Assembly: GCF_004138135.1 (NCBI RefSeq)
Contig: NZ_RYFD01000014.1
Location: forward strand, 1-64,000
Length of the DNA: 64,000 bases
Direction of reading: 5' to 3'
Source of the DNA: Candidatus Oscillochloris fontis
GTDB lineage: Bacteria > Chloroflexota > Chloroflexia > Chloroflexales > Chloroflexaceae
Shown here: positions 12,276-31,848 of the stretch, in pieces
How positions within the stretch are numbered: position 1 is the first letter of the stretch
Layout of the letters: each line of letters starts with the position of its first letter
The notes under the pieces: model-generated
The model's input: the letters and a program-made list of their open reading frames with translations, nothing else
Told to the model about the DNA's origin: nothing
Databases searched by the model: none
Translations under genes and position numbers: made by a program

Positions 12276-12500
12276 CGCAAAGACGCCAAGGCGCAAAGTC
12301 TTCAATAAAAGACCCTATCAAAATCTTGGCGTCTTGGTAAGAGTTCACACTTCTCCTTGCTTCCAGGTTTTGACGCAAAGACGCAGAGGCGCAAAGTCTG
12401 CAATACAACCTTTGCGTCCTTGCGCCTTTGCGTCAATACGAGATTTCTTTTACCCCAAGTGTGAACCCTTACCCGTCTTGGCGTCTTTGCGTCAAAATCG
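12273..12500. repeat. Nested repeat: MITE-like copy inside an ACGCAAAG hairpin
   Basis: The outer hairpin arms are TGACGCAAAGACGCCAAGG at 12273 and GTCTTGGCGTCTTTGCGTCA ending near 12494. Inside is a 136-bp element (12337-12472) bounded by GTAAGAGTTCACACTT and AAGTGTGAACCCTTAC. Its flanks are GCGTCTTG and CCGTCTTG (7 of 8 identical). This is what an 8-bp target duplication of an older insertion looks like. Confidence 0.85.
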
Positions 12501-19946: not shown

Positions 19947-20101
19947 GTAGCTGTTCACACTTCTCCTAGCATCGTAACTGTTCACACTTTTCCTAGTTTT
20001 GACGCCAAGACGCAGAGGCGCAAAGCCTGCAACAAAACCTTTGCGTCCTTGCGCCTTTGCGCCAATACGAGATTTCTTTTACCCCAAGGGTGAATAGTTA
20101 C
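19947..20101. repeat. MITE-like element (family A), copy with a duplicated left end
   Basis: Left ends occur twice: GTAGCTGTTCACACTT at 19947 and GTAACTGTTCACACTT at 19974. They are followed by the ACGCC/GGCGCAAAG core hairpin and a right end AAGGGTGAATAGTTAC finishing at 20101. It begins directly after a stop codon. CACTAGGT occurs at both sides (19941 and 20107) but offset, so a target duplication is not clear here. Confidence 0.8.
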
Positions 20102-20115
20102 CGCACACCACTAGG

Positions 20116-20144
20116 TTGCCCACCACTCCAGATTGTGCTATAAT
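20116..20144 (+). promoter_or_regulatory. rplS promoter
   Basis: TTGCCC, 17 bases, TATAAT, with an extended -10 TG. The same TTGCCC-17-TATRAT pattern occurs before the LuxR-Kelch gene at 43381. Transcription would start near 20151. Confidence 0.75.
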
Positions 20145-20161
20145 CCCCGCCAGCATGCACG

Positions 20162-20240
20162 TCTGGCAGACGCCGTTTCGTCTGCCAGATTTCTATGTTT
20201 TCTGTGTCACGGCCCGCCAGTCCCGCGTGCGTGCGGGCGC
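20162..20240 (+). promoter_or_regulatory. Structured leader of rplS
   Basis: Hairpin 1: an 11-bp stem TCTGGCAGACG with CGTCTGCCAGA (20162-20172 with 20179-20189), followed by TTTCT. Hairpin 2: CCCGC with GCGGG near 20222-20236. A stable hairpin with a short T-run ahead of a ribosomal protein gene fits autogenous control or attenuation. L19 leaders are known in other phyla; homology to them is not claimed. Confidence 0.45.
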
Positions 20241-20276
20241 CTGGGGAGCCGTCTGAGAAAGGATCGTCGAGGGGTT

Positions 20277-20630
20277 ATGTCGCAACAGATCCTTACTGAG
20301 CTGGCTCAGCGTCAGTACAAGCAGGAGATTCCCGAATTTCGGGTGGGTGACACGGTTCGCGTCGGTGTGAAGGTGGTTGAAGGCAGCCGCGAGCGCGTCC
20401 AGGAGTTCGAGGGTGTGGTCATTCGCCGCCGTAGCGGTGGGATCAACGAGAACTTTACGGTGCGCCGGATCGCTTCACACGGCATCGGCGTTGAGCGTAC
20501 CTTCCTGCTCCACGCGCCCCGCCTGGATAGCATCAAGGTGATGCGCCGTGGTAAGGTACGCCGGGCTAAGCTCTACTACCTGCGTGGGCTTACTGGTAAG
20601 GCCGCACGTATCAAAGAGCGCCGCGTCTAG
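20277..20630 (+). CDS. rplS: 50S ribosomal protein L19
   Basis: 117 residues from the ATG at 20277, preceded by GAGGGG. The sequence is canonical L19: [52 protein letters not shown] and a basic C-terminus ([12 protein letters not shown]). It sits at the 30S-50S interface. The stop TAG overlaps the GTG start of the next gene by one base. The usual partners trmD and rimM are not beside it. Confidence 0.98.
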
Positions 20631-21410: not shown

Positions 21411-22034
21411 ATGTTACCCACGATTACGCATGAACGAGCACTGCACGCCCGTGGCTTCCCCAACTGCGCCGGGATTGATGAGGCCGGTCGGGGCTGTTGG
21501 GCTGGCCCGGTCGTGGCGGCGGCGGTGGTGCTGGCCCCCAGCATCTTCCAGCAACCTGATCTACTCGCCGGGGTTAACGATTCCAAGCAACTCGATGCCG
21601 CTACCCGTAGCCGCCTCTTTGTTCAGATCCACCACTACGCCTTGGGGGTGGGTGTCGGTATCGTTCCGGCCTACCTGATTGATGCCTATGGGATCGTTCC
21701 CGCTACCCGCCTCGCCATGACGAGTGCCTTGCTCAGCCTGCCCTGCCCGGTTGATGCACTTCTCATAGATGCGCTTATCCTGCCCGATCTTAGCCTGCCC
21801 CAAGAGGCGCTCATCAAGGGTGATGCGCGCAGCCTCTCGATTGCAGCGGCTTCGATCATCGCGAAGGTCACCCGTGACCGCCTGATGCAGACGGCGGATC
21901 GCGCCGTTCCGGGCTATGGCTTCGCGGCCCATAAGGGCTACGGCACTGCGGTACATCAACGTGCCCTCGCAACTCACGGGCCATGTGCGTTGCATCGGCG
22001 CACCTTCCAGCCATTGTTGGTTTATGATATGTGA
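21411..22034 (+). CDS. rnhB: Ribonuclease HII
   Basis: 207 residues. GIDEAGRG (Asp23, Glu24) and Asp120 (LLIDAL) provide the metal site, with further conserved KGDARS and [12 protein letters not shown] blocks. It cleaves RNA in RNA-DNA hybrids, including single ribonucleotides in DNA. The stop codon TGA (22032-22034) lies inside the left end of a MITE-like repeat (GTGACTGTTCACAC), so the C-terminus may have been set by that insertion. Confidence 0.95.
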
Positions 22035-22263
22035 CTGTTCACACTTGCTCAAGAACCTAAGGTTATTAACGCTAAGACGCCAAGGCGCGTAACTGTTCAC
22101 ACTGCCCCGAACATCGGGGTTTTGACGCAAAGACGCAAAGACGCAAAGACGCAAAGCATTATATTGGAGAACCAACTCCAATCTTTGCGTCTTCGCGCCT
22201 TTGCATCAACCTGTCGTTTTGCGTAGGAATGATAATCCGTTTACCCCCATCGTGAATAGTTAC
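22031..22263. repeat. Composite MITE-like element (family A) between rnhB and murF-alr
   Basis: Left end GTGACTGTTCACACTT at 22031, a second internal left end GTAACTGTTCACACTG at 22089, a core hairpin with tandem GACGCAAA units and a right end GTGAATAGTTAC at 22263. Length is 233 bp. It looks like one copy inserted in another. TTATGAT occurs on both sides, but offset by about two bases. Confidence 0.8.
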
Positions 22264-24790: not shown

Positions 24791-24841
24791 AGAATGTGCT
24801 ACACTGTACATACGTTGTCAATACACGAGATGGGGGCAACT

Positions 24842-25171
24842 ATGCGCAAACCGACAACTTTTCGGTTAAAGGAATCCACCTACACCTTGCTCGACACCCT
24901 CGCACGTCAAGAGGATCTGTCGCGCACGGCCATGTTTGAACTGTTAGTACGTGAAGAGGCAAAGCGGCGTCACCTTGCGATCCCACTTACACCCCGTCAA
25001 CGGGCGGCGCTCGATTCCGACCCGCATGTCGGAGCAGCGCTGGAGCGATTGGGTACGAATGAGTCCTATGTGTTTGCCGATCCCGATGGGGGACCAGGGA
25101 CAATTTTCTTTACCCCTGCTGGTGATGAAGCCCCGGTACATGATCAGCGACTCGCAGAGCTTGAAGGGTAG
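24842..25171 (+). CDS. Ribbon-helix-helix-like antitoxin candidate
   Basis: 109 residues from the ATG at 24842 (GGGGG six bases before it). The N-terminal 45 residues (RKPTTFRLKESTYTLLDTLARQ, then LSRTAMFELLVREEA) look like a CopG/ribbon-helix-helix DNA-binding domain. The tail is acidic, as in antitoxins. The stop is followed 7 bases later by the toxin-like gene start at 25179. It is probably the first gene of a toxin-antitoxin operon that represses itself, but no toxin activity is shown. Confidence 0.65.
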   Translation: MRKPTTFRLKESTYTLLDTLARQEDLSRTAMFELLVREEAKRRHLAIPLTPRQRAALDSDPHVGAALERLGTNESYVFADPDGGPGTIFFTPAGDEAPVHDQRLAELEG

Positions 25172-25178
25172 GCCGCAT

Positions 25179-25616
25179 GCAAGTAGTCATAGCTTGGAGC
25201 GAAACCGCAACCCGTCAATATGCAACCCTTACGTAACTATTCACACTTGGGTAAAGGAAATCTCGTATTGACGCAAAGGCGCAAGGACGCAAAGGCTTTG
25301 TTGCAGGCTTTGCGCCTCTGCGTCTTTGCGTCAAAAACTGGAAGCTAGGAGAAGTGTGAACAGTTACACCCTTACTCCGCCCCAACAGCAGAGTGCCCGC
25401 AATCTGGTTCAGACGATCAAGGTTTCGCCCCGTGCGGCGCACTATTACCATACCGCCACTCAACGGGATGGCACCACCCGTGCCGTCTGGGTTGCCTATG
25501 GACTTACCGTGCGGATCTTATTCACTCTGGCAGAAGATGGACGCAGCCTCATTGCCCGAATCTTCGATGTAGCACCATCCGATCTCCCTGGTATCGCAGA
25601 CTACGAAGAGTCCTAA
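25179..25616 (+). pseudogene. RelE/ParE-like toxin candidate, split by a MITE-like element
   Basis: The reading frame starts at the ATG at 25179 and reads MQVVIAWSETATRQYATLT, then meets a stop inside the element at 25234. Removing the element (25233-25367) and one copy of the 8-bp duplication ACCCTTAC restores an open frame: TATLTPPQQQSARNLVQ and on to the stop at 25614. The restored protein has about 97 residues and ends RAVWVAYGLTVRILFTL, consistent with a small RelE/ParE-like toxin; the family call is tentative. The right part could still be made from a GTG at 25356 supplied by the element. Confidence 0.72.
25233..25367. mobile_element. MITE-like element (family A), 135 bp, in the toxin-like gene
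   Basis: Ends GTAACTATTCACACTT and AAGTGTGAACAGTTAC are 16-bp inverted repeats with one mismatch. The core is a GACGCAAAGGCGCAAGG hairpin. The 8-bp direct repeat ACCCTTAC is at 25225-25232 and 25368-25375. It has no coding capacity, so it needs a transposase in trans. The right end carries AGGAG followed four bases later by GTG, an outward-facing start. Confidence 0.9.
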
Positions 25617-31712: not shown

Positions 31713-31848
31713 GTAACTATTCACACTTGGGGTAAAAGAAATCTCGTATTGACGCAAAGGCGCAAGGACGCAAAGGTTTTGTTGCAGGCTTTGCGCCTCT
31801 GCGTCTTTGCGTCAAAAACTGGAAGCTAGGAGAAGTGTGAACAGTTAC
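31713..31848. mobile_element. MITE-like element (family A), 136 bp, with exact target duplication
   Basis: Ends GTAACTATTCACACTT and AAGTGTGAACAGTTAC, nearly identical throughout to the copy at 25233. The 8-bp direct repeat CTGTTCCC is at 31705-31712 and 31849-31856. This independently confirms the element's borders. It lies between livJ and the membrane-anchored protein gene. The stretch 31857-31967 holds a family C half-unit (near 31895-31917) and a TACAAT -10-like word at 31924. Confidence 0.9.

Follow-up and report, generated by a model that had tools for sequence, protein, structure and literature searches.

The element examined here occupies positions 25233-25367 of a window of 64,000 nucleotides from Candidatus Oscillochloris fontis (contig NZ_RYFD01000014.1, positions 1 to 64,000 of the forward strand), where it interrupts an open reading frame (ORF) that had been described as toxin-like. 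It is probably (about 0.83) a non-autonomous mini-transposon of IS66 type, inserted by the transposase TnpC and positioned relative to sigma70-like promoters. This assignment draws on sequence features: the ends, the target duplications, the copy number, an IS66 element with matching ends, and the fixed distance and orientation bias of the insertions. In the proposed mechanism, the two ends of an ISBst12-like, tnpC-only IS66 insertion sequence (IS) would surround a hairpin repeat foreign to the IS, and an IS66-type TnpC, its role deduced from these ends, would bind them and insert the element by an 8-bp staggered cut. The target would be set by position, with the 8 duplicated bp and a further 6 bp separating the element from the -35 hexamer of a sigma70-like promoter. 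Where a promoter is visible beside an O. fontis copy, the end that faces it is almost always the same one of the two, the B-end. A lone TTGAC at the right spacing seems to be enough at times, which would explain both the insertion into the toxin-like gene, beside a minus-strand TTGACG, and the repeated nesting 27 bp inside the element's own A-end, at the TTGAC with which the hairpin core starts. Guidance may come from promoter-bound RNA polymerase or a sigma factor, or from TnpC reading the -35 and -10 directly.

The element is 135 bp long, its limits being set by repeat analysis and by sister copies, and it is flanked on the left (25225-25232) and right (25368-25375) by exact copies of the 8-bp target duplication ACCCTTAC, as the sequence-only reading had reported. 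The same reading's 16-bp imperfect inverted ends (25233-25248 and 25352-25367) are complementary at 15/16 positions (94%). Throughout the family the two ends differ within the inverted repeat, the B-end continuing GGGGTAAA and the A-end CTCCTAGC. In this copy the B-end (25233-25264, plus strand) reads GGGTAAAGG... on its inner side, one G short of the usual sequence, and the A-end (25344-25367, minus strand) has the usual inner sequence. Between them lies a strong hairpin core (25268-25334; z -6.3) with 30-nucleotide arms, beginning TTGACGCAAAGG. Mechanically called ORFs that touch the element reach at most 106 amino acids and include no transposase gene. Without a transposase, and with inverted ends, 8-bp duplications and numerous copies, the element is well described by the earlier term, a miniature inverted-repeat transposable element (MITE).

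Copies are abundant in the O. fontis genome, a draft assembly of 4.46 Mb in 139 contigs. The 16-base end with at most 2 mismatches occurs at 178 + 173 = 351 sites, against 1 + 2 for a reversed control pattern; positions were listed for the first 100 of the 351. A 151-base query, with 40 of its 299 first-look candidates scored, recovered at least 40 near full-length copies at 90-100% identity; among the matches scored the closest sisters are 97-99% identical to the element at 25233-25367. Among the 20 copies with the best matches (L001-L020), the flanks agree at 7-8 of 8 bases in 16 (15 exact; L011 7/8) and do not agree in L003, L006 and L010; for L014 a tolerance of 3 mismatches still yields no second end. 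Across the O. fontis stretches that were read, 74 of 135 end pairs up to 320 bp apart have 7-8/8 matching flank bases, 55 of them exactly, so that the genome search for the ends, which the sequence-only reading had suggested, found copies that do carry duplications; the other 61 pairs include mispairings inside nested copies. Chance pairing of ends at larger distance was considered and rejected, with 7-8/8 matches in none of 7 pairs beyond 320 bp and a nested array as the one pair with 6. No target preference is found inside the duplicated 8 bp (at most 0.1 bit per column). The end pattern was also met in 3 stretches of viral contigs, none of them with a paired end and duplication.

The exact end is present in 9 other genomes of the family from 4 other genera (10/41 genomes with O. 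fontis included). In Oscillochloris sp. RM1_1_4 (G010), another genome of the family, the same ends enclose a 1,439-bp element at locus L044 in which a single ORF of 454 amino acids takes up 1,365 bp (a single-ORF layout, for which tnpA and tnpB profiles were not run). This ORF is an IS66 transposase by profile (PF03050, 8e-48; NF033517, 269 bits against a cut-off of 180), and by sequence the element is classed in the IS66 family, as an ISBst12-like, tnpC-only member. The first 32 bp of the L044 IS match O. fontis B-ends at 94-97% and its last 23-24 bp match A-ends at 91-96%; the matches fall on corresponding sides, B to B and A to A, the B-end answering to the tnpC 3' end and the A-end to the 5' end. 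No match to the interior of the L044 element was reported in O. fontis (40 of 216 first-look candidates scored). Searches of its draft assembly at profile, protein and DNA level found no IS66 transposase either, and the IS66 enzyme is therefore lost, unassembled or elsewhere. The earlier proposal of a transposase acting in trans, and of a gene for it between the same ends, thus has a plausible counterpart in another genome of the family and none in the O. fontis assembly.

The landing sites were compared by a promoter score, the number of matches out of 12 to TTGACA-N16-18-TATAAT; sites with at least 8/12 were called good, and all are consensus matches, that is, predicted promoters. Removal of 2 unorientable pairs and 11 nested inner copies from the 74 pairs left 61 sites. 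When 60 O. fontis sites are aligned with the A-end to the left, the duplication on the B side is followed by six bases and then by TTG(A/C)C, so that 8 bp of duplication and 6 bp more place the element end 14 bp from the -35, with the GGGG-type (B) end facing the promoter. Scores of at least 8/12 occur beyond the B-end at 26/61 sites, beyond the A-end at 3/61 and on both sides at none. A repeat-free subset drops 16/61 B flanks (hairpin or MITE sequence) and 15/61 A flanks (the same, or a short flank); in it 22/45 B flanks and 2/46 A flanks reach 8, against 0.29% of 15,402 random positions in fetched O. fontis sequence, and B scores exceed A scores (Mann-Whitney, p = 1.6e-7). With a spacing of 6 bp to the duplication the mean score has a sharp peak of 7.3; it falls to 5.7 and 5.1 at one base off and lies at 3.3-4.4 elsewhere. 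Judged by sequence, the insertions in this genome have a fixed distance and an orientation bias.

A simpler account would have an IS66-derived MITE whose transposase merely prefers TTGAC 6 bp from the cut, with promoters reached through the frequency of TTGAC and the purging of insertions from genes. Nested copies and the toxin-like site, which have TTGAC without a good -10, would suit such a preference, as would the higher information content of the -35 columns (0.65-1.2 bits) relative to the -10 columns (0.4-0.6 bits). The -10 itself is nevertheless enriched. A -10 matching at least 5/6 follows after 16-18 bases in 15/28 repeat-free sites with TTG, against 1.2% of 6,226 fetched TTGs, and in 11/17 sites with TTG(A/C)C, against 17% of 82 TTG(A/C)C words outside long ORFs (p = 1.3e-5); 4/17 sites without TTG still have one. 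The TTGAC word alone is therefore an insufficient explanation, and purging would presumably attain neither one-base precision in distance nor an orientation, so that we regard a bare word preference as unlikely, if the most serious competitor to promoter-guided insertion.

Stable RNA genes are among the neighbors of these insertions. ARAGORN, run on 40 chosen loci, found a transfer RNA (tRNA) or transfer-messenger RNA (tmRNA) gene at 7, and in 6 of the 7 the gene starts 49-64 bp beyond the element end and points away (L123 Lys, L172 Gly, L196 Ser, L188 tmRNA, L054 Lys, L041 Gly). Dozens of copies may occupy the binding places of upstream activators or upstream promoter (UP) elements, some of them before tRNA and tmRNA genes, and effects on expression are possible. 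L168 (552-831) is the exception: the tRNA-Gly(ccc) gene beside that copy points toward it.

An independent set of sites came from seven genomes of three other genera. Of 80 B-ends fetched, 32 had no partner at a duplication of at least 7/8; 48 copies remained, 47 of them scorable on both sides, one flank being too short. Scores of at least 8/12 occur in 10/48 B flanks and 10/48 A flanks (random, 0.42%; B over random, p = 4e-4), 19/47 sites reach 8 on one side and none on both, and the mean again peaks at 6 bp. Among elements with tnpC sequence, 4/7 score 8-11 at one end (L044, L096, L081, L086), and L073, L074 and L093 score 3-7. Genome G024 has three IS-like ends on elements cut by contig ends, with scores of 9 for L049 and L056 and 5 for L039. 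The G024 elements so cut pair up by their 8-bp repeats, L049 with L061 and L056 with L065.

Several observations weigh against promoter-guided insertion by an IS66 enzyme. In O. fontis 32/61 sites score below 8/12 on both sides, and the toxin-like site satisfies just the -35 half of the landing rule: its minus strand reads the duplication, TGCATA and then a -35-like TTGACG (25213-25218, on the B-end side and separated from the duplication by 6 bp), with a score of 7 and a poor -10 beyond. The other genera keep the distance without a fixed orientation (10/48 B and 10/48 A flanks, p = 0.54), contrary to a simple B-end rule, and the promoter-facing end has tnpC 5'-type sequence in G024 but is the 3' end in L044. 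The enzyme is deduced from the sequence of another genome, the O. fontis assembly having yielded no IS66 transposase, and L044/L095 and L096 have no matching 8-bp duplication (2/8 and 3/8). Nine more distant IS66 elements (L076, L089, L101, L103, L097, L099, L230, L231, L232) show no rule at 8/12, so a landing rule for IS66 as a whole was rejected and the claim is restricted to this subgroup. A survey that reports IS66 as over-represented between convergent genes likewise argues against promoter targeting as a family-wide habit (PMC9208149, as far as its accessible text goes). From its sequence, the copy in the toxin-like gene looks like an off-target insertion of a promoter-seeking element.

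The copies also insert into one another. Nested pairs were found at 11 loci. At 8 of them the inner copy sits exactly 27 bp within the A-end of the outer one, and both have the same orientation; L019 adds a ninth 27-bp case, and L139, L121 and L118 differ. Eight composites were compared, and in these the sequence of the outer element is N8-N6-TTGACG, since its hairpin core starts with TTGAC. Five kinds of duplicated octamer occur among the eight, the octamer being the same on both sides inside any one composite; this points to five or more independent nesting events and not to one composite that spread. At L179 (678-1072) there is an array of two A-ends and three B-ends at a spacing of about 117 bp, an arrangement that could have arisen when direct-repeat recombination enlarged a nested composite.

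The hairpin cores have a distribution of their own. The core TTGACGCAAAGGCGCAAAG... repeats in relatives without the ends: at 6/6 loci in genomes of the same genus or family (L022, L023, L024, L027, L028, L032) no end core lies within 80 bp. In the three other genera the same ends enclose a different hairpin, GGGAGCGAGGGC..., again with 8-bp repeats, and the O. fontis copy L181 has yet another core. One type of end seems to have acquired several kinds of hairpin repeat. Cores that stand without ends, together with the strength of the hairpin, are what one would expect of a regulatory or structural repeat, resembling repetitive extragenic palindromic (REP) sequences or terminators, that is kept before promoters and is not mobile. 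Such a repeat would hardly have exact 8-bp duplications that vary between sites, nested insertions with duplications of their own and an ORF split in frame, and we give this explanation almost no credence.

Elements of the kind proposed are known in outline. ISDge4, of the ISBst12 group of the IS66 family, likewise has a single transposase ORF (449 amino acids), ends GTGACTACTCAGCA / GTAACTGCTCAGCA and an 8-bp direct repeat (PMC12898284). It differs in being autonomous and in its reported insertion inside a gene; the accessible text gives no target rule for it, and the word promoter is absent from the main text, which describes IS66 transposition mechanisms as insufficiently characterised as yet (PMC12898284). 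MITEPsy1 and MITECca01 are likewise short non-autonomous elements bearing known IS ends, tied respectively to ISPsy2 (perhaps IS5) and ISCca4 (IS982), and MITEPsy1, of which strain 1448A has six copies, makes 4-bp duplications at CTAG/YTAA (PMC3189936; PMC9769881; accessible text of each). A MITE of IS66 type would thus be of a known kind, its target choice has not been found described for IS66, and the guiding contact is a suggestion from sequence. No report of promoter-targeted insertion, or of target choice, for IS66 was found in the open-access literature (subscription papers lay outside the search).

Until now, fixed-distance landing upstream of promoters has been known mostly for mobile elements unrelated to this one. 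TnGBS, ISLre2 and ISKra4 also keep a constant spacing and insert 15-17 bp before the sigmaA -35, with orientation mostly fixed and both ways where the inverted repeats are alike; promoter-upstream insertion with an orientation tied to unlike inverted repeats is termed an unusual property of theirs (PMC3942029). Their transposases are Mutator-like (p-MULT 3 and 4), and the accessible text of that paper is silent on IS66 (PMC3942029). The present element differs in that its end lies 14 bp from the -35 of predicted promoters, its carrier is a MITE and an IS66 transposase lies between matching ends. With the same kind of target at a similar distance, the MITE might belong to such a Mutator-like family (ISLre2, ISKra4), its association with the IS66 element at L044 being chance. 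This is very improbable given that the outermost 32 and 23-24 bp of the MITE agree with those of the IS66 element on corresponding sides, that the more distant IS66 relatives L097 and L099 have exact 8-bp duplications and related GTAA...TTCA ends, and that 4/7 tnpC-sequence elements obey the rule. An ISKra4 transposase was searched for in the O. fontis genome and none was found (ISLre2 was not searched).

Returning to promoter-guided insertion, we lean, with some reserve, toward a further proposal: that an IS66-lineage transposase, independently of the Mutator-like lineage, has evolved insertion at a set 14 bp before sigma70 promoters, with RNA polymerase bound there as its probable docking point, and that the -35 mimic at the start of the MITE core serves as a landing pad for later copies. 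If so, promoter targeting would be a convergent strategy of bacterial transposons. A promoter rule precise to one base, in O. fontis, in three other genera and in tnpC carriers, opens the question of a contact between TnpC and RNA polymerase. Integration next to promoters by way of the transcription machinery has an analogue in the Ty1 and Ty3 elements of yeast, at least in the accounts available here; these differ in being eukaryotic retrotransposons directed to RNA polymerase III.

The ORF split by the element has its ATG at 25177, five bases behind a gene on the same plus strand (24794-25171) with a ribbon-helix-helix domain, a possible antitoxin (RHH_1, 20.2 bits, below the cut-off of 20.5). 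The upstream fragment (25177-25236, plus strand) now runs to an in-frame TAA at 25234-25236 that comes from the first bases of the element, GTAA, and 18 codons remain to the left of the element. The downstream fragment, from the ORF list and protein search, is 25377-25616 on the plus strand. The upstream ATG lies in frame 1, as does the downstream frame once 143 bp (the element and one repeat) are subtracted; the frames join without a shift, as had been noted, a matter of arithmetic in which the sequence at the site was not joined. The toxin label gained no support: the downstream piece has no Pfam, NCBIfam or PADLOC match and hence no recognisable toxin domain, and 'toxin-like' is a description by gene order alone.

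By protein search the downstream piece is present in 3/400 genomes of the phylum, O. fontis included. Genome G025 has a distant homologue (37% identity over 79 residues) that is unbroken across the corresponding site and, read from an ATG inside a longer mechanical ORF, has 19 residues before the split point against 18 codons here. The phylum search listed no protein match to the piece in four genomes of the same genus. When the 823-bp locus was compared with 20 relatives, 5 had matches, all listed ones inside the element core, and 15 had none; no DNA match outside the element was found in any of 5 same-genus genomes. The comparison with close relatives that the sequence-only reading had proposed thus revealed neither an empty site nor the same split among those 20. 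That the gene was intact recently, as had been supposed, is consistent with the exact duplication, the 97-99% identity to sister copies and the unbroken G025 homologue, and no empty-site allele was there to add to them.

Further copies lie in the same window. The copy at 31713-31848 has an exact duplication, CTGTTCCC, and its B-end stands 14 bp before a minus-strand TTGACA-N17-TAGACT; that at 19974-20101 has no matching duplication (4/8), and its B-end stands 14 bp before TTGCCC-N17-TATAAT (20116-20144). Both flanks are good promoter matches with a score of 10, found by flank scan. The site beyond the latter copy lies upstream of ATG 20277 in ORF 20133-20630, whose product from that ATG we take to resemble ribosomal protein L19. 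The end scan also found a copy at 12337-12472, with a 7/8 duplication and inside hairpin-repeat DNA, and a degenerate composite of MITE ends without a clean duplication (22031-22263). ORF 21411-22034 stops within the first bases of the degenerate MITE end (22031-22034), the apparent source of its stop codon. Outside the window, copies L010 and L184, near the ends of contigs C137 and C134, have an identical right flank, TAAATTAA, directly before the contig end, which may mark the place of a larger repeat, perhaps an IS missing from the assembly.
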